Position numbers and translations under genes: made by a program
Shown: positions 986 through 35,170 of the stretch, piece after piece
Position numbering within the stretch: position 1 is the stretch's first letter
How the letters are laid out: each line of letters starts with the position of its first letter
Notes under the pieces: model-generated
Database searches by the model: none
Told to the model about the DNA's origin: nothing
The model's input: only the letters and a program-made list of their open reading frames with translations
Assembly (NCBI RefSeq): GCF_037126465.1
Contig: NC_088202.1
Coordinates: 120,542,123-120,606,122, forward strand
Reading direction: 5' to 3'
DNA: 64,000 bases
Origin: Ornithodoros turicata
Taxonomy: Eukaryota > Arthropoda > Arachnida > Ixodida > Argasidae

Positions 986-1261
986 TCATCGCACCTTCAG
1001 CTAGCTGAACTTGATAAAGAAGAAGTTGGACAATAAAGTGAAGCCGGACATGGTCGAAGGCATTCTAGCAATCTGCTCAGGCTTGAGGCGGCACGGGAAG
1101 AGCTGCTTCGAGTATGACCTCGAAATATTTCAATTAAACTGTTGCAGCATCATTGCTTCTCATTTTCCTTTTTGCTTTTCCTGTCGCTGTTATCTATTGT
1201 ACGCTTCTCCAAAAATATAAAAGATACGAACAAGGCTACACTACAACATACAAGCTCGCTA

Positions 1262-1550
1262 ACTTAGTGATGAGGACGATCGCTTTCCACGCTTACACGG
1301 GTTCGAATCCCGACACCGGCTGTGCTGTCTGGGTGTTTTCGTTGGGTTTTCCCCAGACGGGCTGTAAGACAAATGGCGGCAGAGTTGCCTGTGAAGTCGG
1401 CACAGCTAGAGGCGCTGTCTCCCGTGCAACATGTCGCCACACCGGCTGACAGAGCGCTCGGTGATAGAGGAGCAGGAATCCACAAATTCCCTCCCACGGA
1501 AACAAAACAAACTGGCTGGAGGGACTAACAGAGCCTTGCCTAAGAGGCCC
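1262..1550 (+). repeat. tRNA-derived SINE-like fragment
   Basis: A pol III B-box-like motif GGTTCGAATCC lies at 1300-1310, followed by CGACACCGGC. Downstream is a T/C-rich segment (ctgtctgggtgttttcgttgggttttcccc) of the kind that follows the tRNA-like head in many arthropod SINEs. An A box is not clear, so the head may be truncated. The 3' boundary is uncertain. No functional tRNA cloverleaf can be drawn. Confidence 0.5.
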
Positions 1551-2890
1551 AAGTTGTGAATCTCTGCGCAGTTCGTTTTGCGCGTGGATGGCTTGCGCCG
1601 CTGCTGTGGCTGTGTAGTCAATAACAGTTCGTGATAGGGGTGGAACGAGATGGATAGGGGTGGATAGTGGTAGTGGGTGGGTCAGCTGAATGCTAGCGCA
1701 TTTCCGCCGCGTTAATTACATCGTCCTTCAGTTTTTTTTATATATATAGTTTGTGTGCTTCCAAATAACCTATGATGTTCTCTGTATTAGGTGTCTACCA
1801 AAAATTCATGTGCCATACCTTCAGTCCGCCAATGTAATGTCCCATGACCTTTGAGGCATGTTGAATAGATAAATAAAATAAACGTGACAGAGCACTCCTA
1901 GTATTTCTAATTTGCTGTAAAATTGCTCGGGGCGATATAGGGTGGCGATAGAAGCGTTTGGTGCTTGTGATGGCTACGTAGCCGTCATGCAGCTGGCTTT
2001 TTTCGTTTTATTTAGGTCCAGTGTTATGTGCATGTAATGTAGATTTGCCGCCGTACATGACTATATAGCAATGCGAAGTTTGTTGCAACTTAGTGGTGCC
2101 CCTAGGCTTCAATTTGAATTTTTATTAAAAAATCCATACATGTAAAGGCGACAAACGTTGTGTCGTAAGACTAGTAATGGCTCACGCTATCGAATAGATA
2201 AATTTTCTCAGATTTGCTCTACTACTTTATGAGCAACACGTTACCGCGTCGGGAAATACATAGCTCGGTAATTAAAGCGGCACAGTCGATAACACCCTGC
2301 ACAGACAGCATGCGGACACCGAGCATTGCCTCGCTGTATACAGGATAGAATTTGATAACAATGTGCATCGCGTGCCTTCTGTCTCTTCTACCTGGGACCC
2401 CTTCCCAGGTTCCGAATAACTTTTTAGCCGACAGAGATGCTCGGAAGCGTCTGCGAGTTTTGCTGGCCACTAAAAGCACACAATGACACTTAAAGCTGAG
2501 TGCTCAGCGGCCGCTTGGGATTGTAGGAGAAATGAAGAAAAATTAAATTGTGAACAACTAAGATACCGAAAAGAAGGGACACGCCGACACGGAAAGAGTG
2601 AAATTACCGTCGTTGTGAAATATGGTTCGAGATGAACGTATGATCGAGCGAGCTGTTTAGAATTCCCTTCAAAAGCGAACTGGAAATAGATTTATATCAC
2701 CATTAATATTTATATAGAGCTGTGTTGTTGAGGAACATGTCAGAGGCTGCAGTTAAAATGTAGTTCAATCTACCTAGAGAGTTCAAACCCGATACATAAG
2801 GCTATATACTAAGCGAAAGCTTTTCGCGTCATCAGTAACTCCTAGCGTGGTCGTATTGTGGCGGATGGAAGGTCTTTCCATGAGAATTGT
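1551..2890. other. Non-coding interval with a diverged repeat
   Basis: No convincing gene is visible. The part from about 1925 to 2230 resembles 36730-37100: both contain 'gatggctacgtag', then 'gtaatgtag.tt.cgcc.ccgtac', then 'ggctcacgctatcga'. A weaker match occurs near 59000. It is probably an old interspersed repeat. One copy lies upstream of Kunitz gene 1 and another upstream of Kunitz gene 3, so a shared duplicated 5' flank is also possible. Confidence 0.45.
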
Positions 2891-3042
2891 CCCAAGCAGC
2901 ACAATGTACTGAAAGTCGAGTGCAACAGGGGTGGACGGTATGTGTCTTATCAACGTTTGTTGTTTCACGAGTCTGTTCAAGGCCTTCCACCTACCCGTCC
3001 ACCCCTATTGCACTTGACTTTCAGTACATTGTGCTGCTTGGG
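2891..3042. repeat. 152-bp fold-back repeat (copy 1)
   Basis: Two ~48-bp arms, beginning CCCAAGCAGCACAATGTACT and ending in its reverse complement, enclose a ~55-bp loop. A second copy with the same arms and nearly the same loop is at 29195-29347. It lies 130 bp upstream of the Kunitz gene 1 start codon. The two-copy fold-back structure suggests a MITE; I could not fix a target-site duplication. Confidence 0.75.
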
Positions 3043-3174
3043 GTATTGTGCTCATAGATTTGAAGCAGGAAAGGGAAGCCCTGTTATCAGGCCACCGTAG
3101 GAAACTTTCCGTGACACTTTTCGAGTTACAGCCTACGACCGAAGACGCAAAAACGCCATTAGAACCCAAGACCA

Positions 3175-3619
3175 ATGGCTCGAGAAAGCCTTCTTTGCTT
3201 CATTCTTGTGGCAGCCGCATTCGTTTGGGGTAAGTCAGGATTATGGTTTATTGAAAGCGCAAACGGCTCCGAAAGTTATTGGCAAATTACCAAATTGGCA
3301 TCAAACCGGGGTTTCGGAGGACATACGTGAACTCTTATGAGCACGAAAAGCTTAATTTGATGTTGGTACGCGCTGTTATAATTGCACATACTTTTCTCTC
3401 CCCTTTTACGCAGGACGTGCAGGAAGCACTCTCCATAAAGGTGATAAGCCCAGCTACTGCTACTTGCCTTCAGAGTCCGGCCCGTGTTACGCATACTTCC
3501 TGAAATATCATTATTCAGCGGATGTCCGCGATTGCGTCGAGTTTGTCTACGGCGGGTGCCAAGGCAACGACAACCGGTTCGACTCCTATGAACAATGCGC
3601 ACGCCGTTGTCGCGGCTGA
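3175..3619 (+). CDS. Secreted single-Kunitz-domain protein 1 (two exons)
   Basis: Exon 1 is 3175-3229, intron 3230-3413 (GTAAGT...TTTTACGCAG, phase 1), exon 2 3414-3619 ending TGA, giving 86 residues. Residues 1-19 form a signal peptide (MARESLLCFILVAAAF...). Exon 2 encodes one complete BPTI/Kunitz domain with exact spacing C-x8-C-x15-C-x7-C-x12-C-x3-C, including the FVYGGC core. Six cysteines imply three disulfides. The residue after Cys2 (P1) is Tyr, followed by Ala, which in this family would favour chymotrypsin-like proteases or indicate a non-protease role. It is probably secreted, from salivary gland or haemolymph. The first in-frame ATG gives the signal peptide, which fixes the start. 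Kunitz genes 2 and 3 have the same plan. The specific target is unknown. Confidence 0.93.
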
Positions 3620-3807
3620 AGTCATACAGTTCACATTTCACAAAACCGCGGCTGCAGGCACTGAACAGCGTGACTGGCCGTCGGTGTTACGGCCGCGTAG
3701 ACCATCCCAAAACTTGTACTTATTGCATTAGTTATTTCTTTCGTATGCTCGTGTTACACGTAAAGAACTTGTAGCAACCACAGTGGTTCGCCAGTTTGCG
3801 TTGACCT

Positions 3808-3813
3808 AATAAA
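3808..3813 (+). terminator. Polyadenylation signal of Kunitz gene 1
   Basis: AATAAA lies 189 bp after the stop codon and is followed about 25 bp later by a GT-rich stretch (gagtgtgttgtgttg), the usual arrangement for an animal cleavage and polyadenylation site. Confidence 0.75.
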
Positions 3814-3839
3814 CTTACACCTACTCACTCAGCTGAGTG

Positions 3840-4130
3840 TGTTGTGTTGCTTTCCTCACCTTTAGTGCGTCCGACAAGCTTGGCGTTTGAAATGTACGAT
3901 TACTCAGGTCTTCATGTAGTCAAAAAACTAAAGCCGCTCGATCATTTTTCTTACAAAAGTTGCTGCTTTTTAAAGATGAACCCAATGAAGATTATGGGTT
4001 CATGGGGAAGGTTTGGGTTATTATGAAGATTGTGGGTTTAAATGAGATATCATGATAGGAAATCAATGTGATCCTTGAACGAACTTCTCCCGTGCAAGTT
4101 AGTAAGTAAATTAGTAGAATAAAGTAAACC
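3840..4130. other. Intergenic with a short shared repeat
   Basis: No gene is visible. The stretch around 4065-4100 (gtgatccttgaacgaacttctcccg) is repeated at about 29983-30007, directly before the interspersed repeat there, so this is a fragment of a dispersed repeat. Confidence 0.4.
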
Positions 4131-4330
4131 TTGGAGCTTTCAGCAACCCACCATGGGTGCTACCTGCTCCATTGCAAGAGCTGCATACAGCAATCAAAAC
4201 AAATCACAGCGGTATCCCTCACATACTCACAGGCACACAATCAATGGAACGGGAAAACAATATCGCACACTTCAGATCTACAAAATACGGTGTCAGCAGT
4301 TCACACTAAAACGGAGTTCGCACTTAATCT

Positions 4331-6398
4331 TCACAATACGGTAGTGAGACCAGTCTCACTCAAAAAGGCTACCAGCAGGCGGATTGCCTTCCGTTGATTT
4401 CGCGGCGTATCCCAAGGACCCAAGTGTATCTCACTACAGTGTCCAGAGCTTTCTGCAGGCGCTGCTGTATTTGAGGCCGCGCTTTGCCCGACGTCCAAAT
4501 GCAAACGTCGTCTGCATACAGAGAGATATAAACTATCTCCTGCCGGACAGAAGGTCACCTAACCAGGCTACCATTCGTCCCACGACGCCTCTCCACCGCG
4601 ATGCAGAAATAACGTGCGGGTGGCTTACGGTGTAAAATGCACTCTTGATGTCAATAAACACACCAACTGTAATGCGGCGGAGTGTCCGCTCGTGGTCGAT
4701 GTAGGTTGTAAGGTCTATAAGGCAGTCCATCGTACAGCGGGAGCGCCGGAATCCTGCCACGGATCCTGGCAGACTGCAGTGTGACTCGAGCCACCACGTC
4801 AGACGACGAAGAATCATGCGTTCTATGACTTTGCATATGCAACTGCTTAGGCTGACTGGTCTGAAGGATGTCATATCCTTGGGAGATTTCCCTGGTTTCA
4901 GCAGCGGAATGACAATCGCCTCCTTCCACAATTCGGGAACCTTCCCTGAGCACCATGAGTTATTGAGGAGTGACAACAAGTAACGCATACCTTCCTGGCT
5001 CAGGTTCCTTAGCATGGTGTAGGAAATGGAGTCGGGTCCCGCCGAAGTGCGATTTTTCGAGCGGCGAAGGGCGGATCGTAACTCCATCATGCTGAATTCC
5101 CGATCGAGCACGGAGCTAGTAGAATATATCGTGGCTTCATGAGCTCGTTGTAGTTCAGCAAGGATGGTTGCATGATGCGGCTGAAGAGACGCTTCAGAAG
5201 GCCGCATTATGTACTGGCAGAACTCGTCAGCCAGCTCGATTTCCGATGCACCGCTGTTCATGGCCAATATCTTGAACGGAGCTCTATGTGTTGGCTGGGA
5301 TTGGAGCCCTCGACCGACTTTCCATATACGAGTGGTAGGTGTGAACGGTGTGAGGGTGTCACAGAATTTCCGCCACCGCCTGCGATCTAATTGGATCAGG
5401 CTTCGTCTTGCGACTGCATGTGTTCTGCGAGCATCCAGTATATCCTCGAGTAGGCTTGAGCGTCGCGCCTTTCTCTCGGCTCGTCTTCTGAGCTCGCGAA
5501 GTCGTTGAAACTCTGGATCCACTGTACGATGGCCCTGCGGAACGGCAGCTGTCGTTGTGGATCGGTCATAACAGCTGCGGACAGACTGAGCAAAGGTCTC
5601 AGCATTCGACGCTGATGTAGGTATATCCTTAATTAGCGAACTCCTTCCAGTTTGTAAGAGAAAGATACTTTCTCGGCCTCTGAGCGCTAGTCCTTAGTCC
5701 AGAGTGTGATATTAGTGTGGGAAGGTGGTCGCTCCCTCTCGTCTCCACGTCCACTGACCATGTAAGATCATTCAGAATGTCTGGAGAGCAAATCGTTAGA
5801 TCCAGGCAGGAGCTTGAGGAATTACAAATGAAAGTTGGTGACCCGTCGTTGAGTATGCACAGCTCTAGATCTTCGATGACGTTAGACAGCATTCTGCCCC
5901 TGCTGTCAGTTCTGGCGCTACCCCATATGATGTTATGCGCATTGAACTCGCCGCATACTATGAAAGGTGCAGAAAGTCCGGAGAATATCTCTAGCAGCAT
6001 GCGTTCAGGAATTGTGGTGGCCGGAGGTAAGTAAACGCTGACAATAGTCACTGTCATAGTGCTGCTGAACCGCACCTTGCACTGCACAAACTCACAAGTG
6101 TCCGTTTGTGAATTCCGGATGAGTGTCGCAGGAAGACCTTGCCTCACACAGAGCATGGCGCGGGTCAGGCCTGCAGGCCGATGGGAATTGTATGTAACGT
6201 AGCGTGAAACACGAAAAGCTGCCGGTACTTTTTCATTATCACTTCTTCATTTATTGTTGTTGCCGGTACTTTTGCTTCACTGATTACTAGAACTGGAAAC
6301 AGGTACCTGTACAGGAGGTCACGTAGGTCACTCATCTTGCAGCACAGGCCCCTAGCGTTCCATTGCACAATCGTAGTCGATGTGTACAGCTTATCCAT
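4331..6398 (-). pseudogene. LINE ORF2 (endonuclease-reverse transcriptase), broken
   Basis: Frame 6398-6165 holds the endonuclease start (IVQWNARGL...VISEAKVP). Frame 6156-5629 holds its middle and end (VSVYLPP, FNAHNIIWGS, NDGSPTF, SSSCLDLTI, SDHLP). Frame 5522-4533 is the RT N-terminal half (FRPVSLSSCICKVIERMI, VAGFRRSRCTMDCLIDL, FIDIKSAFYTVSH). The RT stops before the YXDD box. Frame 4558-4331 then gives LGPWDTPRNQRKAIRLLVAF, matching the LINE C-terminal tail, so an internal deletion joins RT to the tail. At least three frameshifts make it a dead copy. Confidence 0.85.
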
Positions 6399-6714
6399 GA
6401 TGATACGCTGAGTTCCCGAAGGAAGTAGAGTTCTTCAATACAGACTCCATGGCCAGAAACGCATGTACCTCAGGAAGTCCCCGGGAAGCTGGAGACGCTG
6501 CGATGATAGCACGGAGAGCAATGAAGAACATGTTGCACAAGAGGTGCAGGAAGTTTCCTTGCGAGTCATAGCTTTGCGGGAGTGCCACAGGAGTTGAAGA
6601 CTCTGAGTAAGGCCTACGGGACTGGTAGAGCTTAGCCGTGTTCCTTGGGATACGTATAGGACGCGATGGCGTAGCAGTTGTCGTGGGAGGTTCAGCTGAG
6701 GCCGAGGGCCCGGT

Positions 6715-7748
6715 CTATTCTGAGGATCTAGGTTCATTTCGCGTTTCTCTGCCGGTTTTTCCGACATGAGCATACATTGGCCGGGAACGATTCCTTGTGT
6801 TCTGACGCGTTTGTTGTTCCCCTGTGACAATCGCGGCGGAAGCAGTGGATGGTGTAGACTGAGCAGCCAGGGCTGGTGGCGGACGCACCATGTCCTCGTT
6901 AAATGGAGGAGCGTCACGACTCGGTGGTTTGCCCTCCAGTACTTGGTACGTTCGGTTGCTTGCAGCGGTCCGCTTCACCTCACAATGTGCAAACGATGCC
7001 GCGTGGGACCCACCGCAGTTTGCGCACTTTGGCTCCCTCCTAGCTGTGCAGTCCTTACAGGAATGAGGCCCCGAGCATATACTGCAGTGCAAGTTACCTC
7101 TGCAATTCTTCGTTATATGTCCAAAGCGTTGGCACTTGTAGCACCGCGGTGGACCCTCGATATACTCTTGTACGGCAAAACATGCGAATCCTAGGTTTAC
7201 AGGCGAGGGGAGAGGGACGTCTGCACGGAATGTTAGCAGTAACTCATGGCTGACCGTTCCGTCCTCGGATGGACAAAAGGCCTTCTGTCGCTTGACAGAG
7301 ATCACATCGTAGTCTTGTAAGTACTCCTGAAGCGCTGACTCTTCGTAGAACAGCGGCACTCTTTTTATTTTCCCTTGATTCTTAGCGTATGACTGTGGAA
7401 TGACCGGCTGCACTGGAATCCCGGCCAGGGAACGCCACGATAACAGGTTAGTGGCAGCTGCGAGGGATGGCAAAGTCATCGCTACACTACCATCTTTGTA
7501 AAACGGTGAGATAGGACCTTTTCTTGAGCCTTTGAAACTATCTCCTGGGCTTCTTTGGTGGGGTTCGCCGACCAAAGTGGCTTATCAGCGGACTCCGGAC
7601 GGAACAGCACCGGTATGCCGCACGTTCTATTTTCCTTGTAACATACCATGGTGAATGGGGTCTCGTCCCCATCGTGCTCCTCCATGGAATCATCTTGAAC
7701 ATGCTCGTACTCCACTGTTTCCGATGTGTCAAGGAATTGTTGCTCCAA
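6715..7748 (-). pseudogene. LINE ORF1 (gag-like, zinc knuckle), frameshifted
   Basis: Two overlapping frames are needed: 7748-7482 for the acidic N-terminus (MEQQFLDTSETVEYEHVQDD), then 7575-6715. The second part has three Cys/His knuckles typical of LINE ORF1: CYKCQRFGHITKNC (CX2CX4HX4C), CSICSGPHSCKDC and CANCGGSHAASFAHC (CX2CX4HX6C). The product would be a nucleic-acid-binding RNP protein. The frame change around 7500-7575 shows it is no longer intact. Identity as LINE ORF1 rests on the knuckles and on the EN-RT genes just downstream. Confidence 0.85.
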
Positions 7749-7880
7749 GTCTTCAATTGATGTGTTGTATTTTAGGACCGCATGCTAGGCATGTGTCGTC
7801 GAGTTCCCCGTTGCAGTTTTGTTTCTTGCACTTCAGCTCACTTGTAGGGGAGTAGTATAGAGATAGACTGTATAATTTTG

Positions 7881-7955
7881 GAGCGGCATAAGAACCGAGC
7901 GGCATAAGAACCGAGCGGCATAAGAAGCGAGCGGCACAAGAACCGAGCGCTATAA
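7881..7955 (+). repeat. Subterminal 16-bp tandem repeats (mirrored at about 19356-19430)
   Basis: About four and a half copies of a 16-bp unit, GAGCGGCATAAGAACC with small variants, lie 30 bp inside the terminus. The same array is present in inverse orientation inside the right terminus. Subterminal repeats often serve as transposase or integrase binding sites; that role is inferred. Confidence 0.8.
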
Positions 7956-7979
7956 CGGCATCCTTTTTCTAATCCAAGA

Positions 7980-9800
7980 TGGCCGATTCTAAGCCAACAC
8001 AATCCAGTTCTAAGCCAACACAAGCCAAATCCAGAGCCATCTGATTGGCCGCCATTAGCTCCGCCTACTTCACACGTTGATTGGCCCATGCTAAGCCTAC
8101 TGATCTTTGATTGGTTGACCGTAGCTCCTTCATGCTAATTAATTGGCTCCGCCCCCACTTCACACGCTGATTGGCTCATGCTAAGCCTTGACTGAGCATT
8201 GATTGGTTTACCGTAGCTCCACCCCTTCATGCTAATTACTTGGCTCCGCGCCCCCCCCCCGTTGATTGGCCACCGCTACTGATCGCGCGCGCGTTGATTG
8301 GTTCACCATGGCTTCGCCCCGCCCGTTTATGTTAATTACTTGACTCCGCCCCGCCCCCGGCTTCACGCTGATAGGTGCACGCCCCGGCGCGACCGCTGAT
8401 TGGTCCAGGCGCGGCGGCAGCGACCCCGCTGCGGCTTTATCTCAGATGTCCAAACTTACCCATCTCTTCATGCTGATTGGTCCATTCTAAGCCTGTCAGC
8501 GCTAATGAGCACTCTCCCAGCCCCCCCCCCCTCTGATTGGCCGCCGCCGCCGCCGCCCGCCGCTGAAACACACCGCCGGACGCCCCGCTGCGGCTCTATC
8601 TCAGATGTTCAAACTTACCCGGGCTAGGCTGTGCTCAGCGATACCGACGGCTGGCCCTGATTGGTCCACGCTAAGTCTACTGAACGGTGATTGGCTTACC
8701 TGTCGCTCCTAAGCAGCTTCAGACAAGACACACACGACAATTGTTGATTTCAACCTTTATTTGGTACAACAGCCTCCTGGTCCAGCCGTGGCTATAGGTT
8801 CAGTTGCATCAGAGAGATCATTGGTCCATAATTCTATGTGGACATCTCTCATTGCTCACTCAGCTGCCTCGGTAGATTCCAACTGTTATTGGTTCATCTG
8901 ACTGCACGTGGCCGCTCAGCCAGCTCCTTATTGGTTCTAGTTGGTCACAGCTCCCTCATAGGCTCCAACTCCGATGGGTCCATCTAACAGCAAGTGGTCA
9001 CTGCTATTGATCCATTGAACTGCAAGCCACTCATTGGTCACTCACACTCATCTCTAGACGAGATAAATTTAACTGTGGGACTTTTACCATAAGATAACTT
9101 TAGCGGGGGCTGGTATGCTCCAACTGCTATTGGCCCGTGCTAGCTGCATGCCTCCACCCTGATGCTCATCATGGTTCACAACGCGCATGCTCTGACGGCG
9201 CCGAAGAAGGTTCCCTACACATTTAATAGAAATTATGCTATTGGCCCAGCTGCGTCATAGGGCACAGCTGTGGCTGGCTCTGAATGGTCCATGCTACTTA
9301 CTTCGTGGCGCAACTCTTTAATGACTCCACCCACTTCGCATTGATTGGTCCATTTTAAGCCTACTGACTTCTAAGCCAGTCCACGCTAAGCCTACTGATC
9401 ACTCTACCAGCGCTCTGATTGCCAATTGGCCCTCGTTCTAAGTCCACTGACACCAGATGGCGCAACTCTTCACCAGCTCTGCCTACTTCATGCTGATTGG
9501 TCCATCCTAAGCCTACTGACTTCTAAGCCGAACCACTCTAAGCCTACTGAACAGTGATTGGCTAGCCCGTCGCTCCTAAACCACAATGCAGCAGCTTCAG
9601 ACAAGACACACGACAATTGTTGATTTCAACCTTTATTTGGTACAACAGCCTGTGGGTAGGTTCAGCTGCATCAGAGAGATCCCGGTCATCTCTTGCGCTC
9701 ATTGGTCACTCAGCTCCCTCGATAGACACCATATGGCTCATCTAACTGCAAGTGCTCATTGGCCCATCTGACTACAAGCCTCCCATTGGTCACTTAGGTC
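7980..9800 (+). promoter_or_regulatory. CCAAT-box array, left arm
   Basis: At least 25 copies of ATTGG (inverted CCAAT), most as TGATTGGTCC or ATTGGCC, are spaced 30-100 bp apart, often alternating with 'ctaagcctactga' or 'gctccgcc'. A ~35-bp segment (tatctcagatgt.caaacttaccc) is also directly repeated at about 8435 and 8598. CCAAT is the NF-Y binding core; density this high suggests enhancer-, origin- or matrix-like function, but that is inference. No convincing open frame spans it. Confidence 0.7.
9632..9637 (-). terminator. Outward poly(A) signal, left arm (second copy 8756-8761)
   Basis: On the minus strand 'gtaccAATAAA-type' context reads CCAAATAAAGGTTG, followed by a GT-rich stretch (gtcgtgtgtcttgtctg), a well-formed poly(A) site. 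The ~50-bp segment is duplicated, with the second copy at 8756-8761. Confidence 0.5.
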
Positions 9801-9844
9801 TAGAGCTCCCTAACAGGCTCCAACTGCTATCGGCCCATGCCTCC

Positions 9845-10450
9845 ATCCGCGGCTGCTCACTGGTTCACAATGAAACTTTTTCACAGGCTCTGCCCTACAC
9901 AGACAAGAGATGGCGCCGCTTGTCTTTGCAAAGATGGACAGCTGCCATTGCATTGGTGACTCATTTCTATCCAACTGGCTCATAGTTCTAGAGAGCCAGC
10001 GTTCTGAACAGCTTACATGCCGCCGCCTGTTCACATAGACGCAGTTGGAAATGAAAAAAAAAAAAAAACATTTTCAGGGTACACATCTCAAAACACGCTC
10101 CACACAAGTAAAGTTGGCTTCCCCCGGTTGCATGCCTGCGTTAGGTGAAGCCCGTCCCATCCGCGGCTGCTCACTGGTTCACAATGATACTTTTTCACAT
10201 GCTCTGCCCCACACATACAAGAGATGGCGTCGCTTGTCTGTGCAAAGATGGACAGCTGCCATTGCATTGGTGACTCATTTCTATCCAACTGGTTCAAGAG
10301 AGCCAGCGTTCTGAACAGCTTACATGCCGCTATTCACATAGCCACAGTTGGAAATGGGAAAAAAATTGTTTTCGGGGTACACATCTCAAAACACACTCTA
10401 CACGAGTAAGGTTGGCTTCCCCCGGTTGCATGCGTGCGTTAGGTCAAGCC
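9845..10450 (+). repeat. Tandem duplication of ~314 bp, left arm (mirror about 16860-17470)
   Basis: A block beginning 'catccgcggctgctcactgg' and running past 'gagccagcgttctgaacagc' occurs twice (about 9845 and 10158), with a partial third start near 10411 (ttggcttcccccggttgcatg). The copies differ by scattered substitutions and a poly(A) tract at 10051-10066. The open frames in it look fortuitous. Confidence 0.7.
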
Positions 10451-10879
10451 CACCCCATGAGAACAAGCTTAGGATCGTTTAGGATGTGTGTGCTTTGCAG
10501 TTCAACCTAAAAATTGTTTCAATCAAGCAGAATGGCAAATGATGCAATGGAGCGCGTTCATTCTTGAGAACGAATTTTGTGACAGAACATAAACAAAACA
10601 AAACATTTCAATGCGCAAAAAGCTCATCGTGATGGTAATCAGGGAAGCCAGCACACGTTCGAAATAAGCAAGAAGAAGCACATGATCGAGAAAACAACGA
10701 TAGTTGATGCTGTGCAGAGAAGCTGGTTTGAGGGAAAAACAGCTTGTATGATCAATAAACCCCATAGAGCTTGGGCCTGTTTTTATTTTAGACAGTGCGC
10801 ATTCAACACGCGAAATTAAATAAATCGAGCAGAATGACAATAGCATAGTGGCGCTATGTGGTGAAGCTCAAGACGCACT

Positions 10880-11680
10880 GACACTCCAACGCTTATTAAA
10901 CAATGCTATGCACGCACGTACTGAAGCTAAAAAAAACAAAAAAAACGGCAGACTCAACCCAAGCTGAGTATGAAGAAACACAATTTCACACTGCTCCCCA
11001 CAGAATACTTTGTTCAAACATAGCCGGCGTACATGACACAGCTCGCACTCCTGGAAGCACTCTTAGAAATATAAGTCCAAGGCACAACGTCGCACTATGA
11101 ACGAGTTCATCTCGAAAAAAAATGCGCGCTCACCTTCCCAGACGGGTCACGAGCACCATGCCGCAATATCTGAAACATGCGGCGCGTGGACAGCTCACGC
11201 GACTTTAGCCAGCCCGTGCAGTTTTAGACTTCAACATAACAAATTAACTAAATCAAGCACAGTGATGCTATGTCGTGACTGACGCTTATTAAACAATGCT
11301 ATGCAGTGAAGCTTCGCACGTACTCAATGTTAAAAACGGACACTCAACCCAAAACTGAGTATGAAGAAACACAATTTCAGATTGCTCTCTCCCCGAACAT
11401 CCTGTGCACCTCCGCGTTCCTTCTCTATACTGGAAGCAGCAATATTAAGATCGTCGCACTATGAACAAGTCCGGCTCATCAAAAAAAGAAAGGGCTTACC
11501 TCATCACACCGGTATTACGCACGTAGACTCTTATCGCATGGCGCGGTACAGCAGGGTAGGGAAACACGGCCGCGTGGACAGCTCACATGATTTCAGCCTG
11601 CCCGCGCACACCTCACAACATGCGCCGACACACCCAACATGTCGACCACTTACCGTGCCAGCCGCACGGAAAACTTGATA
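10880..11680 (-). repeat. Diverged ~400-bp tandem duplication, left arm (mirror about 15640-16440)
   Basis: The segment starting 'acgcttattaaacaatgctatgca' recurs at about 11283, and 'gagtatgaagaaacacaatttca' recurs at about 10968 and 11359. Read outward (minus strand here), each copy contains a consensus-like splice donor (ATGAG|GTAAGC and GGGAAG|GTGAGC), so the duplication may be of a non-coding exon and its donor. Confidence 0.55.
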
Positions 11681-11726
11681 GCCGAAACACAGGCGCGTAA
11701 CACACCCCTCTGGTTGGGACCATCTC

Positions 11727-11733
11727 TTTTATA
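11727..11733 (-). promoter_or_regulatory. Outward TATA box, left arm
   Basis: On the minus strand the sequence reads TGATATAAAAGAGATGG, a strong TATA box, followed about 75 bp later by a donor GGCACG|GTAAGTGG. A second copy, TTGATATAAAACAGATGG, lies near 11800-11815. This predicts a transcript running toward the outer end of the arm. Confidence 0.55.
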
Positions 11734-12250
11734 TCAGTGCTCGCTCGTTTCCGCAAGGTTGCAAGCCCGAGAAATTGGGTCACCTTGAAGATGAGCCATC
11801 TGTTTTATATCAAAACGCACTTCATGGCCAAACTCTGCGGCGGACCCTAGCGGAAAAAAATGTTGCGTCAAGGTGATGTAACGAGAAACTGGGTCACCTC
11901 GTAAATCATGTTTTCCGAGGCCGCACGTATTAAAACCAGTGATCACACCACGCTATGCGAAGGAAAAAAAATATCCCTATGAGTCCACCTGCTCATTGCC
12001 GAAACAAGCTCCGAGAACAAAGGGTTCGCTTATGCAGTTTCCAAGAGGTTCCAAATGTCCCTCGCAGCTAACGGGCGCGCATCACGGGCGCGATTGTGTA
12101 AACACCACCCTCCAAGGGCGCATTTGAGTTCCGTCCATCGGTCGACTCTGGGTTAAGCGCACAACGAGGAAGATAAGGAAAGTTTTCAGTTCATTCGGCA
12201 GTATTTCCTGTTTTTAGGAGGGAAAATTCTGTGTTGTGTGATGGAGACGC

Positions 12251-12285
12251 TATATAGATAGGTGATAAGGAGAAGGATTATATAG
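12251..12285 (+). promoter_or_regulatory. Inward TATA-like elements, left arm
   Basis: TATATAG occurs at 12251-12257 and again at about 12280-12285, some 370-400 bp before the start codon of the spliced gene at 12656. With the outward TATA box ~520 bp away this makes a divergent promoter region. The distance to the ATG would require a long leader, so this promoter assignment is tentative. Confidence 0.35.
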
Positions 12286-12359
12286 CGCGTACTCATCGAC
12301 TAAGCGAGTATAGTTTGTGGAGAGCGCCACGCTATTTTAAAGTCATTTTATATCATATC

Positions 12360-12600
12360 CCAAACGTTCTGCGCGATCAAACGGAAAGAAGAAAACCGTT
12401 TCACGCATCACGGTGCGTGCGCGTGCTCAAACAAGTTCTGGCTATTAGTAAAAGAAGTAGTTTTGGGTTCCCAGGCGGGTGTTTCCAGCGCATCAGGCAA
12501 CAACGTAAACTGTTCTGCGCGATCAAACAAGTCCCGCTCCCACGCGCGTACCATATCATAACTTGTTTCAGCGTGCTCAAACAAGTTCTGGCTTTTGTGG
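12360..12600 (-). repeat. Iteron-like motif repeated four times (mirror 14719-14960)
   Basis: On the minus strand a motif close to TTGTTTGAGCACGCTGAAAC or TTTGATCGCGCAGAAC occurs four times between the divergent promoters and the spliced gene. One minus-strand frame (to 12408) translates the repeats as QNLFEHAE and RDLFDRAE, giving an 80-residue open frame that lacks an ATG at its 5' end. It could be a protein repeat, a protein-binding iteron or both. Confidence 0.45.
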
Positions 12601-12655
12601 TCGTATGATGGTGCAGATTTGTAAGAAACACTGAAGAGAGTCAAGGGCACACACT

Positions 12656-13080
12656 ATGGAAATTGACGGCCGAATTAGAAAAGGTATTGCGATTTTATCC
12701 TCGCTGTCTAATCAAAAGCACTATTTTCAGCAGGGCGAACGGTCCTCGATGTTTTGACGGCGTTTTTCGGTTGGATTCCGGAAGATGCAGTACCGCGGGG
12801 TCTCTATGAAGCTTTCATCGGGAATCGATTCACCACCATGGATAGGGTAGACGATGCTGTGGACGAGATCCTACGAGTATACCACGAAATTGAGCTAGAA
12901 AAAGGAGATGCGAACCTATTCATGATATCACGCGAAGTCCTAAAGAGATACGGCTACAGAGACATCGCGGGCATAGATATTCTTCAAGCTCTTCATCTGC
13001 TGCACGTCTTAGTTTACCTCTGGAATGAATGCTGTCGTATCATGTACGAACCGTATGGCTGTCCCCTAAAGATCGAGTGA
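12656..13080 (+). CDS. Spliced unknown gene in the left arm
   Basis: Exon 1 is 12656-12683 (ATG start), intron 12684-12730 (47 bp, GTATTG...TATTTTCAG, phase 1), exon 2 12731-13080, giving 125 residues. Without splicing, the long frame has no ATG at its start (first plausible codon TTG at 12754), so the intron supplies the start. Overlapping AATAAA signals follow at 13133-13142. I do not recognise the family. The product is predicted to be mostly alpha-helical, with an acidic amphipathic middle (VDDAVDEILRVYHEIELEKG) and a hydrophobic helix near the C-terminus (DILQALHLLHVLVYLWNECC). It has no signal peptide or zinc motif. An identical copy lies in the right arm. It may be a small accessory or regulatory protein of the element; function unknown. 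Confidence 0.7.
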
Positions 13081-13448
13081 AACAGAAGAAGAAAAGGCGT
13101 CTTTGACGAGCAACCGATTGGAGTGCGGAACAAATAAATAAATATTTTGTCAACACAGTTGTCCGTTTGTATGACTGGATAGGAAAAGCACGATATTTCT
13201 TGCATTTTTCTAAAGATATAGATTAAAAAGTTGTGCATATACTCACACATACTATACAAGATATATGATTGTGGATTAATTGCTAAAATTTATCGATCCA
13301 CATTCAGGAGAAGTGGTGACTACCACACATCAGTAAGAGTTTAATCACAATTTGAACAAGTGTTGCGATTTATGATCAGTGTTGTAGAATGTGTAATTTC
13401 ACAATACGCAAGCTTTAATTCGCTCACTTTGACGAGCACTCTTTCACG

Positions 13449-13611
13449 ATGACAGAGAATTTAATCGAATGGATCGATATTTTCTATATACACTATAACA
13501 TAATGCGAATTCTTTATGTCGTGGATATTAAAAGTTACGAATATTTTCCGAATGAAATTTACTTACAACTCGAAGAAAGGGTCACCCGCGTCGACGAACC
13601 CGTTTCGGCAA
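13449..13611 (+). pseudogene. Open-frame N-terminus cut off by the palindrome centre
   Basis: An ATG at 13449 begins MTENLIEWIDIFYIHYNIMR and continues in frame to the end of the arm (~54 residues), then runs into the asymmetric spacer. The mirrored copy starts at 13870 on the minus strand. Both read through the spacer into antisense of the other arm before stopping (103 residues). This looks like the 5' end of a longer gene lost when the palindrome formed. No family recognised. Confidence 0.4.
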
Positions 13612-13619
13612 CACGCCGG

Positions 13620-13697
13620 GCCGCGTTTCCCCAATGCCGTACCCGAAACCGAACGCGATTCTGCGCCCGACGTGTTAACGCGGTACCGCACGCGAGC
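13620..13697. other. Asymmetric ~80-bp centre of the palindrome
   Basis: Inward of GGGTCACCCGCGTCGACGAA and its inverse the arms differ by a small indel and then stop matching. The remaining ~80 bp are GC-rich, contain ACCCGAAACCGAACGCG and GTTAACGCGGTACC, and have no mirror partner. It would be the loop of a cruciform or the junction of a head-to-head fusion. Confidence 0.7.
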
Positions 13698-14238
13698 GTG
13701 TTGCTTTTTGCGGAAACGGGTTCGTCGACGCGGGTGACCCTTTCTTCGAGTTTTAAGTAAATTTCATTCGGAAAATATTCGTAACTTTTAATATCCACGA
13801 CATAAAGAATTCGCATTATGTTATAGTGTATATAGAAAATATCAATCCATTCGATTAAATTCTCTGTCATCGTGAAAGAGTGCTCGTCAAAGTGAGCGAA
13901 TTAAAGCTTGCGTATTGTGAAATTACACATTCTACAACACTGATCATAAATCGCAACACTTGTTCAAATTGTGATTAAACTCTTACTGATGTGTGGTAGT
14001 CACCACTTCTCCTGAATGTGGATCGATAAATTTTAGCAATTAATCCACAATCATATATCTTGTATAGTATGTGTGAGTATATGCACAACTTTTTAATCTA
14101 TATCTTTAGAAAAATGCAAGAAATATCGTGCTTTTCCTATCCAGTCATACAAACGGACAACTGTGTTGACAAAATATTTATTTATTTGTTCCGCACTCCA
14201 ATCGGTTGCTCGTCAAAGACGCCTTTTCTTCTTCTGTT

Positions 14239-14663
14239 TCACTCGATCTTTAGGGGACAGCCATACGGTTCGTACATGATACGACAGCATTCATTCCAGA
14301 GGTAAACTAAGACGTGCAGCAGATGAAGAGCTTGAAGAATATCTATGCCCGCGATGTCTCTGTAGCCGTATCTCTTTAGGACTTCGCGTGATATCATGAA
14401 TAGGTTCGCATCTCCTTTTTCTAGCTCAATTTCGTGGTATACTCGTAGGATCTCGTCCACAGCATCGTCTACCCTATCCATGGTGGTGAATCGATTCCCG
14501 ATGAAAGCTTCATAGAGACCCCGCGGTACTGCATCTTCCGGAATCCAACCGAAAAACGCCGTCAAAACATCGAGGACCGTTCGCCCTGCTGAAAATAGTG
14601 CTTTTGATTAGACAGCGAGGATAAAATCGCAATACCTTTTCTAATTCGGCCGTCAATTTCCAT
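14239..14663 (-). CDS. Spliced unknown gene in the right arm (identical copy)
   Basis: Exon 1 is 14663-14636, intron 14635-14589, exon 2 14588-14239, the exact mirror of the left-arm gene; the exon 2 open frame translates identically. Both copies point toward the centre of the palindrome. Identity at this length implies recent origin of the palindrome or ongoing gene conversion between arms. Product unknown. Confidence 0.7.
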
Positions 14664-15585
14664 AGTGTGTGCCCTTGACTCTCTTCAGTGTTTCTTACAA
14701 ATCTGCACCATCATACGACCACAAAAGCCAGAACTTGTTTGAGCACGCTGAAACAAGTTATGATATGGTACGCGCGTGGGAGCGGGACTTGTTTGATCGC
14801 GCAGAACAGTTTACGTTGTTGCCTGATGCGCTGGAAACACCCGCCTGGGAACCCAAAACTACTTCTTTTACTAATAGCCAGAACTTGTTTGAGCACGCGC
14901 ACGCACCGTGATGCGTGAAACGGTTTTCTTCTTTCCGTTTGATCGCGCAGAACGTTTGGGATATGATATAAAATGACTTTAAAATAGCGTGGCGCTCTCC
15001 ACAAACTATACTCGCTTAGTCGATGAGTACGCGCTATATAATCCTTCTCCTTATCACCTATCTATATAGCGTCTCCATCACACAACACAGAATTTTCCCT
15101 CCTAAAAACAGGAAATACTGCCGAATGAACTGAAAACTTTCCTTATCTTCCTCGTTGTGCGCTTAACCCAGAGTCGACCGATGGACGGAACTCAAATGCG
15201 CCCTTGGAGGGTGGTGTTTACACAATCGCGCCCGTGATGCGCGCCCGTTAGCTGCGAGGGACATTTGGAACCTCTTGGAAACTGCATAAGCGAACCCTTT
15301 GTTCTCGGAGCTTGTTTCGGCAAAGAGCAGGTGGACTCATAGGGATATTTTTTTTCCTTCGCATAGCGTGGTGTGATCACTGGTTTTAATACGTGCGGCC
15401 TCGGAAAACATGATTTACGAGGTGACCCAGTTTCTCGTTACATCACCTTGACGCAACATTTTTTTCCGCTAGGGTCCGCCGCAGAGTTTGGCCATGAAGT
15501 GCGTTTTGATATAAAACAGATGGCTCATCTTCAAGGTGACCCAATTTCTCGGGCTTGCAACCTTGCGGAAACGAGCGAGCACTGA

Positions 15586-15592
15586 TATAAAA
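15586..15592 (+). promoter_or_regulatory. Outward TATA box, right arm
   Basis: Exact mirror of the left-arm signal. TATAAAA is followed downstream by a first-exon-like segment and the donor GTAAGTGG at about 15665. Transcription would run rightward to the poly(A) signals at 17684 and 18560. Confidence 0.55.
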
Positions 15593-17519
15593 GAGATGGT
15601 CCCAACCAGAGGGGTGTGTTACGCGCCTGTGTTTCGGCTATCAAGTTTTCCGTGCGGCTGGCACGGTAAGTGGTCGACATGTTGGGTGTGTCGGCGCATG
15701 TTGTGAGGTGTGCGCGGGCAGGCTGAAATCATGTGAGCTGTCCACGCGGCCGTGTTTCCCTACCCTGCTGTACCGCGCCATGCGATAAGAGTCTACGTGC
15801 GTAATACCGGTGTGATGAGGTAAGCCCTTTCTTTTTTTGATGAGCCGGACTTGTTCATAGTGCGACGATCTTAATATTGCTGCTTCCAGTATAGAGAAGG
15901 AACGCGGAGGTGCACAGGATGTTCGGGGAGAGAGCAATCTGAAATTGTGTTTCTTCATACTCAGTTTTGGGTTGAGTGTCCGTTTTTAACATTGAGTACG
16001 TGCGAAGCTTCACTGCATAGCATTGTTTAATAAGCGTCAGTCACGACATAGCATCACTGTGCTTGATTTAGTTAATTTGTTATGTTGAAGTCTAAAACTG
16101 CACGGGCTGGCTAAAGTCGCGTGAGCTGTCCACGCGCCGCATGTTTCAGATATTGCGGCATGGTGCTCGTGACCCGTCTGGGAAGGTGAGCGCGCATTTT
16201 TTTTCGAGATGAACTCGTTCATAGTGCGACGTTGTGCCTTGGACTTATATTTCTAAGAGTGCTTCCAGGAGTGCGAGCTGTGTCATGTACGCCGGCTATG
16301 TTTGAACAAAGTATTCTGTGGGGAGCAGTGTGAAATTGTGTTTCTTCATACTCAGCTTGGGTTGAGTCTGCCGTTTTTTTTGTTTTTTTTAGCTTCAGTA
16401 CGTGCGTGCATAGCATTGTTTAATAAGCGTTGGAGTGTCAGTGCGTCTTGAGCTTCACCACATAGCGCCACTATGCTATTGTCATTCTGCTCGATTTATT
16501 TAATTTCGCGTGTTGAATGCGCACTGTCTAAAATAAAAACAGGCCCAAGCTCTATGGGGTTTATTGATCATACAAGCTGTTTTTCCCTCAAACCAGCTTC
16601 TCTGCACAGCATCAACTATCGTTGTTTTCTCGATCATGTGCTTCTTCTTGCTTATTTCGAACGTGTGCTGGCTTCCCTGATTACCATCACGATGAGCTTT
16701 TTGCGCATTGAAATGTTTTGTTTTGTTTATGTTCTGTCACAAAATTCGTTCTCAAGAATGAACGCGCTCCATTGCATCATTTGCCATTCTGCTTGATTGA
16801 AACAATTTTTAGGTTGAACTGCAAAGCACACACATCCTAAACGATCCTAAGCTTGTTCTCATGGGGTGGGCTTGACCTAACGTACGCATGCAACCGGGGG
16901 AAGCCAACTTTACTCGTGTAGAGTGTGTTTTGAGATGTGTACCCCGAAAACAATTTTTTTTCCCATTTCCAACTGTGGCTATGTGAATAGCGGCATGTAA
17001 GCTGTTCAGAACGCTGGCTCTCTTGAACCAGTTGGATAGAAATGAGTCACCAATGCAATGGCAGCTGTCCATCTTTGCAAAGACAAGCGACGCCATCTCT
17101 TGTATGTGTGGGGCAGAGCATGTGAAAAAGTTTCATTGTGAACCAGTGAGCAGCCGCGGATGGGACGGGCTTCACCTAACGCAGGCATGCAACCGGGGGA
17201 AGCCAACTTTACTTGTGTGGAGCGTGTTTTGAGATGTGTACCCTGAAAATGTTTTTTTTTTTTTTTTCATTTCCAACTGCGTCTATGTTAACAGGCGGCG
17301 GCATGTAAGCTGTTCAGAACGCTGGCTCTCTAGAACTATGAGCCAGTTGGATAGAAATGAGTCACCAATGCAATGGCAGCTGTCCATCTTTGCAAAGACA
17401 AGCGGCGCCATCTCTTGTCTGTGTAGGGCAGAGCCTGTGAAAAAGTTTCATTGTGAACCAGTGAGCAGCCGCGGATGGAGGCATGGGCCGATAGCAGTTG
17501 GAGCCTGTTAGGGAGCTCT

Positions 17520-19330
17520 AGACCTAAGTGACCAATGGGAGGCTTGTAGTCAGATGGGCCAATGAGCACTTGCAGTTAGATGAGCCATATGGTGTCTATC
17601 GAGGGAGCTGAGTGACCAATGAGCGCAAGAGATGACCGGGATCTCTCTGATGCAGCTGAACCTACCCACAGGCTGTTGTACCAAATAAAGGTTGAAATCA
17701 ACAATTGTCGTGTGTCTTGTCTGAAGCTGCTGCATTGTGGTTTAGGAGCGACGGGCTAGCCAATCACTGTTCAGTAGGCTTAGCGTGGTTCGGCTTAGAA
17801 GTCAGTAGGCTTAGAATGGACCAATCAGCATGAAGTAGGCAGAGCTGGTGAAGAGTTGCGCCATCTGGTGTCAGTGGACTTAGAACGAGGGCCAATTGGC
17901 AATCAGAGCGCTGGTAGAGTGATCAGTAGGCTTAGCGTGGACTGGCTTAGAAGTCAGTAGGCTTAAAATGGACCAATCAATGCGAAGTGGGTGGAGTCAT
18001 TAAAGAGTTGCGCCACGAAGTAAGTAGCATGGACCATTCAGAGCCAGCCACAGCTGTGCCCTATGACGCAGCTGGGCCAATAGCATAATTTCTATTAAAT
18101 GTGTAGGGAACCTTCTTCGGCGCCGTCAGAGCATGCGCGTTGTGAACCATGATGAGCATCAGGGTGGAGGCATGCAGCTAGCACGGGCCAATAGCAGTTG
18201 GAGCATACCAGCCCCCGCTAAAGTTATCTTATGGTAAAAGTCCCACAGTTAAATTTATCTCGTCTAGAGATGAGTGTGAGTGACCAATGAGTGGCTTGCA
18301 GTTCAATGGATCAATAGCAGTGACCACTTGCTGTTAGATGGACCCATCGGAGTTGGAGCCTATGAGGGAGCTGTGACCAACTAGAACCAATAAGGAGCTG
18401 GCTGAGCGGCCACGTGCAGTCAGATGAACCAATAACAGTTGGAATCTACCGAGGCAGCTGAGTGAGCAATGAGAGATGTCCACATAGAATTATGGACCAA
18501 TGATCTCTCTGATGCAACTGAACCTATAGCCATGGCTGGACCAGGAGGCTGTTGTACCAAATAAAGGTTGAAATCAACAATTGTCGTGTGTGTCTTGTCT
18601 GAAGCTGCTTAGGAGCGACAGGTAAGCCAATCACCGTTCAGTAGACTTAGCGTGGACCAATCAGGGCCAGCCGTCGGTATCGCTGAGCACAGCCTAGCCC
18701 GGGTAAGTTTGAACATCTGAGATAGAGCCGCAGCGGGGCGCCCGGCGGTGTGTTTCAGCGGCGGGCGGCGGCGGCGGCGGCCAATCAGAGGGGGGGGGGC
18801 TGGGAGAGTGCTCATTAGCGCTGACAGGCTTAGAATGGACCAATCAGCATTAAGAGATGGGTAAGTTTGGACATCTGAGATAAAGCCGCAGCGGGGTCGC
18901 TGCCGCCGCGCCTGGACCAATCAGCGGTCGCGCCGGGGCGTGCACCTATCAGCGTGAAGCCGGGGGCGGGGCGGAGTCAAGTAATTAACATAAACGGGCG
19001 GGGCGAAGCCATGGTGAACCAATCAACGCGCGCGCGATCAGTAGCGGTGGCCAATCAACGGGGGGGGGGGGGGGCGCGCGGAGCCAAGTAATTAGCATGA
19101 AGGGGTGGAGCTACGGTAAACCAATCAATGCTCAGTCAAGGCTTAGCATGAGCCAATCAGCGTGTGAAGTGGGGGCGGAGCCAATTAATTAGCATGAAGG
19201 AGCTACGGTCAACCAATCAAAGATCAGTAGGCTTAGCATGGGCCAATCAACGTGTGAAGTGGGCGGTGCTAATGGCGGCCAATCAGATGGCTTTGGATTT
19301 GGCTTGTGTTGGCTTAGAACTGGATTGTGT
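17520..19330 (-). promoter_or_regulatory. CCAAT-box array, right arm
   Basis: This mirrors the left-arm array, with the motif now reading CCAAT on the plus strand (gaccaatca, gggccaata and similar). The pattern is conserved between arms, apart from homopolymer changes near 18789 and 19059. Confidence 0.7.
17684..17689 (+). terminator. Outward poly(A) signal, right arm (second copy 18560-18565)
   Basis: AATAAA followed by 'gtcgtgtgtcttgtctg', the mirror of the left-arm site; the duplicate is at 18560-18565. Together with the TATA box at 15586 it delimits a predicted 2.1-3.0-kb primary transcript with no good open frame. Confidence 0.5.
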
Positions 19331-19466
19331 TGGCTTAGAATCGGCCATCTTGGATTAGAAAAAGGATGCTGTTATAGCGCTCGGTTCTTGTGCCGCTCGC
19401 TTCTTATGCCGCTCGGTTCTTATGCCGCTCCAAAATTATACAGTCTATCTCTATACTACTTAGGGG

Positions 19467-20007: not shown

Positions 20008-20551
20008 CATATTGAAGCTGAGAGATGGTGCAACGGAAGCGTCTGGTGGTGGTGGTGGTAGGTAAAATAACAAGGGGAGGTTGAATTCGCTTGCGCGAAT
20101 TCTGCTACCCCCCAAAAAAGAAAGACGGTACACCCCAAAGCAGAAGAAAAGAAAGGAAACGGTACGATTGCACCACAGAATGTGCGAGCGCACCGCGAAA
20201 GGGGACTATAGGGAGCCAATAGACGTTTCCGTAAAAGTTCACCCCGGTGAACTTTTACGGAAGCGTCTATTGGCTCCCTATAGTCTATATTCCATAGTAA
20301 CGATGCGCGACAGCCGTTTACATAGTTGTCTGGAAAGGTTCAGCAAGGTCACTGGCATTTCGCAAGAGACGCATTTCGTAAGACGTACACGTGAGGACTT
20401 CTCACATTCTTTCCATCGTCCTCTTCTTGTGCTTCAGACCCACATGACGCGCTTACCTCGATATAAGGACAGCATGTGCTCCGTGGCACAATCAGACATA
20501 TATGTCGAAGGTCTTGCTTAAGAGTCAAGGCTTCTAGTTGCTAAGTGAAAA
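20008..20551 (+). repeat. Dispersed repeat, copy A, with internal insertion
   Basis: It matches 29955-30870 from 'cccctgcatcatatt' through 'atagtaacgatgcgcgacagc', 'cttgtgcttcagac' and 'ggacagca.gtgc.ccgtggcacaatcag'. Copy A has an extra segment (about 20046-20260) flanked by ACGGAAGCGTCT on both sides, indicating an insertion. Copy A lacks the hAT MITE present in copy B, so it shows the empty site. No coding potential. Confidence 0.65.
20204..20285. repeat. 82-bp near-perfect palindrome
   Basis: GACTATAGGGAGCCAATAGA is followed by arms meeting at TTCACC|CCGGTGAA and ending TCTATTGGCTCCCTATAGTC, with only a 1-3-base imperfection near TTTCC/GGAAG. It is part of copy A of the dispersed repeat and seems to have arisen by inverted duplication of its GCGTCTATTGGCTCC segment. 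Confidence 0.8.
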
Positions 20552-34925: not shown

Positions 34926-35170
34926 CCTCATCCGTGAGGCCCCTCACGAAAGACCTCATGGCCTCATTCGTGAGGTCTTTCACGAAAGGCCTCATGGCCT
35001 CATCCGTGAGATCCCTCACTAAAGGCCTCACGGCCTCATCTTTGAGGTCCCTCACGAAAGGCCTCACGGCCTCATCCATGAGGTTCCTCACGAAAGGCCT
35101 CACAGCCTCATCCGTGAGATTCCTCACAAAGGGCCTCACTGCCTCATCCGTGAGGCTTCTCACGGAATAG
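34926..35170 (+). repeat. 36-bp tandem repeat, about 6.8 units
   Basis: Units such as CCTCATCCGTGAGGTCCCTC followed by ACGAAAGGCCTCACGG repeat every 36 bp with point differences. Each unit contains CCTCA and TGAGG in self-complementary arrangement, so it can form serial hairpins. Because 36 is a multiple of 3, both strands stay open (34889-35170 plus; 34843-35247 minus); I read these frames as a by-product of the satellite. Confidence 0.9.

Follow-up and report, generated by a model that had tools for sequence, protein, structure and literature searches.

The element described here lies within a 64,000-nucleotide stretch (the window; C2:120542123-120606122) of a 1.07-gigabase (Gb) genome in 379 contigs, whose host is probably a soft tick, Ornithodoros. 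Window positions 7851-19460 form a near-perfect palindrome of 11.6 kilobases (kb), in which two inverted arms of about 5.75 kb flank an 86-nucleotide (nt) centre (Table 1). Aligned with each other, the duplications and centre being left out of the count, the arms differ by 17 substitutions, 14 of them within the outer 2.6 kb, and by 5 indels (26 gap columns). The element runs from AGTAGTATAG to CTATACTACT (i.e., AGTAGT...ACTACT) and is flanked on either side by TAGGGG. A previous sequence-only reading of the window had described two nearly identical inverted arms of this size, and the ends and TAGGGG flanks that it gave (7845..19466) proved exact to the base.

The outer arm contains an array of CCAAT boxes: positions 7851-9850 contain 26 ATTGG and one CCAAT, against an ATTGG density of 0.9 per kb outside the element, and the array has its mirror image in 17461-19460. 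Sequences are also duplicated inside the arm (87% over 318 nt, 71% over 341 nt and 76% over 219 nt, plus others). TATA-like and AATAAA motifs, all of them consensus matches only, occur in both directions; in the outward region (8666..11730), where the open reading frame (ORF) listing yields no convincing coding frame, they lie near 11728/11804 and at 9632 and 8756, respectively. The inner arm holds a 122-codon frame at 12712-13077, termed gene 2, with a putative in-frame GT...AG intron read by eye (12684-12730). None of the seven arm ORFs searched matched a Pfam family up to E 5; hence, no recognisable Polinton core gene is present among those ORFs. Rfam and tRNA scans of the window found nothing. 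These features agree with the sequence-only reading, which had listed a CCAAT array in each arm, internal duplications, divergent promoters and a spliced small gene, and had found the core genes lacking.

Table 1. Coordinates of the features of the palindromic element (window positions, unless a contig is given)
Feature	Position	Strand	Basis or remark
Left target-site duplication, TAGGGG	7845..7850		flank comparison
Right target-site duplication, TAGGGG	19461..19466		flank comparison
Left palindrome arm	7851..13616	+	inverted-repeat search, arm alignment
Right palindrome arm (mirror copy)	13703..19460	-	inverted-repeat search, arm alignment
Central spacer, 86 nt	13617..13702		homologous in three other palindromic copies compared, either orientation
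Terminal repeat, starts AGTAGT, includes part of CCAAT array	7851..8617	+	85-92% to asymmetric gene-bearing relatives
Mirror of parental terminal repeat, ends ACTACT	18704..19460	-	inner border mapped via arm alignment
CCAAT-box array, 26 of the 27 sites of 7851-9850 in one orientation; mirrored in right arm	8050..9850	-	motif count
Satellite-specific outward region with internal duplications; mirrored in right arm	8666..11730	-	consensus motifs only
Promoter region	11768..12044	+	77-80% to parent segment between protease side and PolB; mirror ~15275-15551
Second piece of same parental promoter region	12239..12325	+	80%; mirror ~14994-15080
Possible first exon of gene 2 (putative GT-AG intron 12684-12730 preserves frame)	12656..12683	+	read by eye
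Gene 2 main exon, inside stop-free frame 12712-13077	12731..13080	+	ORF listing
Gene 2 mirror copy	14239..14588	-	ORF listing
Central inverted-repeat module, ORF 3 (MTENLIEW...) on each side	13188..14131		common to palindromes with other arms and ends
Extra gene-2 segment loci	C3:15.69M, C3:17.23M, C3:33.55M, C19:2.14M, C169:0.17M, C4:43.80M		inner-arm query

Searches of the genome, whose counts are all lower bounds, were used to find other copies. The exact terminus AGTAGTATAGANATAGACTG occurs 167 times (77+90; control, 0), and a 400-base-pair (bp) terminal query gave at least 43 matches of 72-100% identity, 40 out of 1366 candidates being scored. Among the matches listed (100 of the 167 termini), 43 pairs of ends face each other at distances of 7.6-17.7 kb. 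The 6-bp flanks are identical in all 12 elements whose two flanks were compared, namely the window element, nine fetched elements, C1:228.64M and C2:29.21M (TAGGGG, CTTATC, TGCATG, CACCAG, AACAGC, GACGTT, AATGTG, CCTGTC, CCTATC, TGCGTC, CACGTA, CAGGTC). At C1:15.50M, the left end is altered beyond its first eight bases and the duplication is nonetheless intact. A 6-bp duplication, which the sequence-only reading had noted together with AG...CT ends as typical of Polintons/Mavericks, is present in 12 of 12 elements, and palindromic copies other than the window's carry different duplications where checked, as that reading had proposed to look for. The combination of (AGT)2//(ACT)2 ends with 6-bp duplications is given as the commonest vertebrate Maverick end in PMC8097293. 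The terminal 30-mer is absent from IMG/VR.

An inner-arm query yielded at least 93 matches (40 of 1575 candidates scored). Sixty-three of these 93 places, 30 short or partial rows being omitted, resolve into mirrored inner arms around the same centre at no fewer than 28 loci, window included, a few with one side shortened. Recurrence on this scale shows a family that propagates, not an artefact or a single event, and the termini, the mirrored centres and the duplications proper to each copy establish independent insertions at many sites. The sequence-only reading had considered one element; the palindrome belongs to a multi-copy family and is not a single fusion. Among the first eleven relatives fetched, five are palindromic or nearly so (C60, C6:73.99M, C1:101.04M, C1:15.50M, C1:137.46M) and six asymmetric. 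Among the matches listed (100 of 167 termini, 100 of 405 centres), the central 31-mer turned up in nine of the 43 facing pairs of ends, 8-226 bases off the midpoint. These nine measure 7.6-13.4 kb (median 12.2), eight falling between 11.6 and 13.4 kb, as compared to 8.7-17.7 kb (median 13.5) for the other 34, a size relation that allows packaging and proves nothing. As both lists cover only part of the matches, the 34 may include palindromes; C1:137.46M is one of them.

The two arms of a copy are 99.3% identical in C60, 97.9% in C6 (76 gap columns), 99.95% in C1:15.50M and 99.2% in C1:137.46M. Compared with the window's, the middle arm is 95.5% identical in C60 and 83% in C1:137.46M. The central spacer, lying in either orientation, is homologous among the copies in which it was compared: the four agree in 87-94% of the aligned columns when gaps are counted. 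For these copies, therefore, the palindrome most likely formed once and was then inherited as such. Two members depart from the common layout. C2:29.21M (L049, C2:29209791-29217959) is a shortened, 7.6-kb palindrome: the stretch with gene 1 and gene 2 is gone from both sides and the central repeat from one of them, its CAGGTC duplication being intact. The diverged C1:137.46M, whose outer arms are 62-90% identical to the family's, has 4.9-kb arms around a unique centre containing gene 1, gene 2 and a gene-2 paralogue; the central repeat is absent. Plausibly, it represents a step preceding the full palindrome.

The asymmetric relatives share with the window's arm the terminal repeat (arm 1-767; 85-92% identity) and, in the pieces compared, the promoter stretch (arm 3918-4194 and 4389-4475; 77-80%). 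ORFs were listed in four of them (C3:94.15M, C1:222.69M, C2:63.64M, C1:228.64M) and the gene set pooled. It comprises a PolB of 1196 amino acids (aa), matching at 26% over 668 columns a protein with Pfam PF03175 (which we take to be DNA_pol_B_2); a retroviral-type integrase (rve, E 1e-8; chromodomain, E 1e-6); an adenain-like protease (E 1e-3, slightly under the Pfam cut-off); an ATPase-like ORF; and two ORFs, presumably for the major and minor capsid proteins, named partly by position, the capsid-like ORFs having no library match. Several of the frames are broken in one copy or another. Together, the pooled genes make up the Polinton/adintovirus set. The polymerase of one related element is matched across 98% of its length, at 91% identity, by a protein annotated Ornithodoros turicata, and the assignment of the host is based on this match. 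PMC10675110 reports adintovirus integrations in Ixodes. A longer relative with the same termini plus core genes was what the sequence-only reading had suggested searching for; the asymmetric elements answer to that description, their ORFs including PolB, integrase and protease besides ATPase-like and capsid-like ones.

In the parent, the promoter that the satellite retains lies next to PolB, and its orientation relative to the terminus is the same in both. Each arm is thus built like a parental right end in which about 3 kb without convincing coding frame take the place of PolB and small genes that of the other side. One gene-bearing element, C3:94.15M (C3:94149422-94163673; L015/L016), has its own right end, the PolB side, duplicated in inverted form over 3.83 kb at the left end, with no mismatches and 2 gaps. 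Right-end inverted duplication does occur, then, in this lineage, and the event, apparently recent, is of the same kind as that proposed for the palindrome.

The centre of the palindrome is not confined to the window family. The central 31-mer has 405 genomic occurrences (189+216, with up to 2 mismatches; control, 0), and each of ten listed places outside the inner-arm matches (10/10) matches the central module across the spacer, several being shortened on one side. Some occurrences lie close together: C4:43748019 and C4:43748374 within 0.4 kb, C1:179478552 and C1:179481049 within 2.5 kb. Larger stretches were fetched at three of these loci, two of which were followed to their ends. At C3:59.25M, 4.2 kb are mirrored at 96%, with other sequence past the ends (AGTAGTATGTATAGGG...ACTACT), and the flanks AAGACT/AAGATT differ by one mismatch. 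At C1:95.92M, the arms are mirrored piecewise, the larger pieces at about 91-95%; the ends are AGTAGTAATTGGCCC...ACTACT, with GCTATG on both sides. C1:65.64M has mirror arms of 838 bp and rearranged outer arms, and its ends were not found in the stretch fetched. The three loci resemble one another in their arms (up to near the ends in the two whose ends are known), and apart from the central module and some 100 bp beside it these arms do not match the window's. All three loci harbour a relative of gene 1, 30% identical at C1:65.64M and recognised by the same motif in both arms of C3:59.25M and C1:95.92M. One arm of C3:59.25M additionally contains a non-LTR (non-long-terminal-repeat) retrotransposon, named by eye, with an open 1242-aa frame (L051:319-4047). 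We had entertained the idea that the centre is a small miniature inverted-repeat transposable element (MITE); this was dropped, as two of the sampled loci are kilobase palindromes and the third carries the same arms rearranged.

The centre is, in sum, an inverted repeat common to palindromes with other ends, a point that the sequence-only reading did not contain. The two termini other than the window family's begin AGTAGTAAYTGGCCC... and AGTAGTATGTATAGG..., and at least three Polinton-type termini (AGTAGTATAG, AGTAGTAATTGG and AGTAGTATGTATAGG) are found on palindromes with one centre. On the two loci followed to their ends, such sharing may reflect either end-swapping or descent from an older family.

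A palindromic Polinton satellite family is well supported: the palindrome is multi-copy, its copies have 6-bp duplications of their own, its ends are common to gene-bearing relatives, and its centre is shared. Both halves of the earlier proposal, a non-autonomous Polinton/adintovirus satellite or a head-to-head fusion of one end, fit these data. We think it likely that a Polinton/adintovirus has in this element a palindromic, non-autonomous satellite, which arose by fold-back and relies on proteins supplied by a helper; mobilisation in trans, fold-back, hairpin homogenisation and packaging are inferred. The satellite would contribute two parental terminal repeats, serving as replication origin and integrase substrate, and a cargo consisting of the promoter module plus at least one small gene. 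From the parent would come PolB, the terminal protein, the integrase and perhaps the capsid. Long single strands that contain inverted repeats are reported to rearrange (PMC10164571). Strands of this sort are produced by protein-primed replication. A single-stranded or broken right end would have folded back at the inverted repeat that is now the centre and copied itself outward, the element spreading as a palindrome thereafter. The arms may stay alike because one can template or repair the other in hairpin form. They would be equalised before or at insertion, most simply through the folding of a palindromic strand into a hairpin whose end is a normal origin.

Some findings sit uneasily with this picture. 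The conserved inner 825 bp differ by 0.49% within elements (five elements) versus 1.56% between them (86 comparisons); the two ranges overlap, the minimum between elements being 0.36%, and the arms of C1:101M are about 1.4% different. On the parental side, the ATPase-like ORF has a weak AAA_14 match only (E 0.014), and Pfam returns no DNA polymerase match for PolB or for its closest database relative. Finally, comparison of the arm with asymmetric elements revealed neither gene 1 nor gene 2 in any of them and no counterpart of arm 792-3900, indicating that most of the arm is not simply parental.

The end duplication in C3:94.15M raises the possibility that the palindrome is just a defective parent genome, an adenovirus-like end-duplication or symmetric recombinant integrated once or several times and forming no lineage of its own. 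The mechanism is familiar from protein-primed viruses (the symmetric recombinant of adenovirus type 12, Ad12), and this gene-bearing element displays it without mismatches. However, the sharing of arms and central spacer (87-94% of columns) by four copies largely refutes the idea; gene 2 and the centre are common to 28 loci, the diverged C1:137.46M has the same outer arms (62-90%), and the genes of the family are not seen in asymmetric relatives. We regard this explanation as unlikely. Even less can be said for a transposon of the cut-and-paste type that has very long terminal repeats, is no relative of Polintons and shares their ends by chance or capture. Palindromic transposons are known, and no transposase or integrase was recognised within the window element (ORFs, Pfam); yet a 767-bp terminal repeat (85-92%) and the promoter from the PolB side are common with gene-bearing Polintons, and 6-bp duplications accompany satellite and gene-bearing Polintons alike, making this origin very improbable. 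An assembly error, through a missed adapter or a fold-back read, has next to no probability: errors of this kind do yield inverted repeats with small spacers, but here the flanks differ and bear a target duplication, the arms are distinguished by 17 sites and 5 indels, and 28 loci show mirrored inner arms, the duplications being different ones in the copies checked.

The abundance of the central 31-mer (405 occurrences) gives some weight to a further possibility, that the central inverted-repeat module is the primary selfish driver and Polinton ends were captured later, repeatedly. The two loci followed outward, with kilobase mirror arms, other (AGT)2 ends and a gene-1 relative in both arms, would suit such a history. 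They are, however, two of about 405 places outside the window family, and both still end in Polinton fashion. This reading has perhaps a minor chance of being correct, and it may be the same story told from the other side rather than a true alternative. Returning to the satellite interpretation, we tentatively suggest that palindromic hyperparasites could switch helper by swapping ends. A new parental end would be captured on one arm and transferred to the other by fold-back copying at the centre; a single recombination event would then re-arm the satellite for a new helper, the palindrome regenerating both ends from one functional end.

Polintons are commonly placed close to the root of many lineages of eukaryotic DNA viruses. 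We know of no Polinton satellite lineage that propagates as giant palindromes, and none is described in the literature surveyed at the level of titles and abstract openings. The element resembles Polintons/Mavericks and adintoviruses in its (AGT)2//(ACT)2 ends and 6-bp duplication, and its terminal repeat and promoter are common with a gene-bearing relative in the same genome. It differs in being palindromic over its full length and in having no recognised gene for PolB, integrase, protease, ATPase or capsid. The symmetric recombinant and end-duplication defective genomes of Ad12 are likewise palindromes of one genome end derived from a protein-primed replicon; those are occasional products of infection, whereas the element belongs to a chromosomal, multi-copy family with its own genes and a shared centre. 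Palindromes of the Tetrahymena ribosomal DNA type form at short inverted repeats and share with the element large size and a small central inverted repeat, but the element is mobile and germline-heritable. Foldback transposons and MITEs are also non-autonomous with long inverted repeats; unlike them, the family is mostly 11-13 kb long, with Polinton ends and small reading frames. As with virophages and other DNA-virus satellites, dependence on helper machinery would be combined with accessory genes; in contrast to virophages, no capsid, polymerase or integrase gene was recognised in the element (ORFs, Pfam). One assembled genome contains gene-bearing relatives, satellites, a freshly end-duplicated relative and a long-repeat form side by side. 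This allows direct tests of how palindromic genomes originate in protein-primed replicons, of how their arms are homogenised and of whether they depend on a helper. In addition, inverted repeats of the family may be spread by the hundreds through the host genome, possibly a cause of instability and a source of hairpin RNA.

The small genes have few points of comparison. Gene 2 has no convincing relative among 5.8 billion proteins or in IMG/VR, PDB, Pfam, PHROGs (best E 0.097) and NCBIfam. A fold predicted from the single sequence is helical but of low confidence (pLDDT, the predicted local distance difference test score, 48), and the model was not used. In its 3′ part, 9 distinct sequences give values of 0.017 for nonsynonymous (pN) and 0.029 for synonymous (pS) differences, which hints only weakly at constraint; the set was obtained from 27 matching rows, 16 of which were full-length and gap-free (some the same place twice). 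The C6 copy has a single-base insertion. As a guess from the predicted helical fold and lack of relatives, the product might be a regulator or a host-interaction factor. In the three other palindromes aligned, gene 1 stands ahead and gene 2 is without the start of the window copy; the window element, accordingly, is one of two subtypes. For gene 1 itself, no relative came from Pfam, PDB (best E 0.77) or the protein database. At some loci, the gene-2 segment (about query 1-434) is present in additional copies next to the full match, at times several in succession, a pattern like that of gene-accordion amplification (Table 1). ORF 3 (window 13419-13760; L027:6143-6454), with no relative in IMG/VR or PDB, begins in one arm and crosses the centre of the palindrome into the other, its tail varying with the orientation of the spacer.

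Outside the element, pieces of a non-LTR retrotransposon on the minus strand (reverse transcriptase, endonuclease and a weak zinc knuckle) occupy window positions 4533-7784, directly left of the insertion site. Just to the right of the element, positions 20204-20285 form a hairpin of 40 nt, 98% complementary, with a 2-nt loop. Further on, a tandem array at 34926-35155 (36-nt unit, 6.4 copies) is rich in CCTCA/TGAGG mirror motifs.

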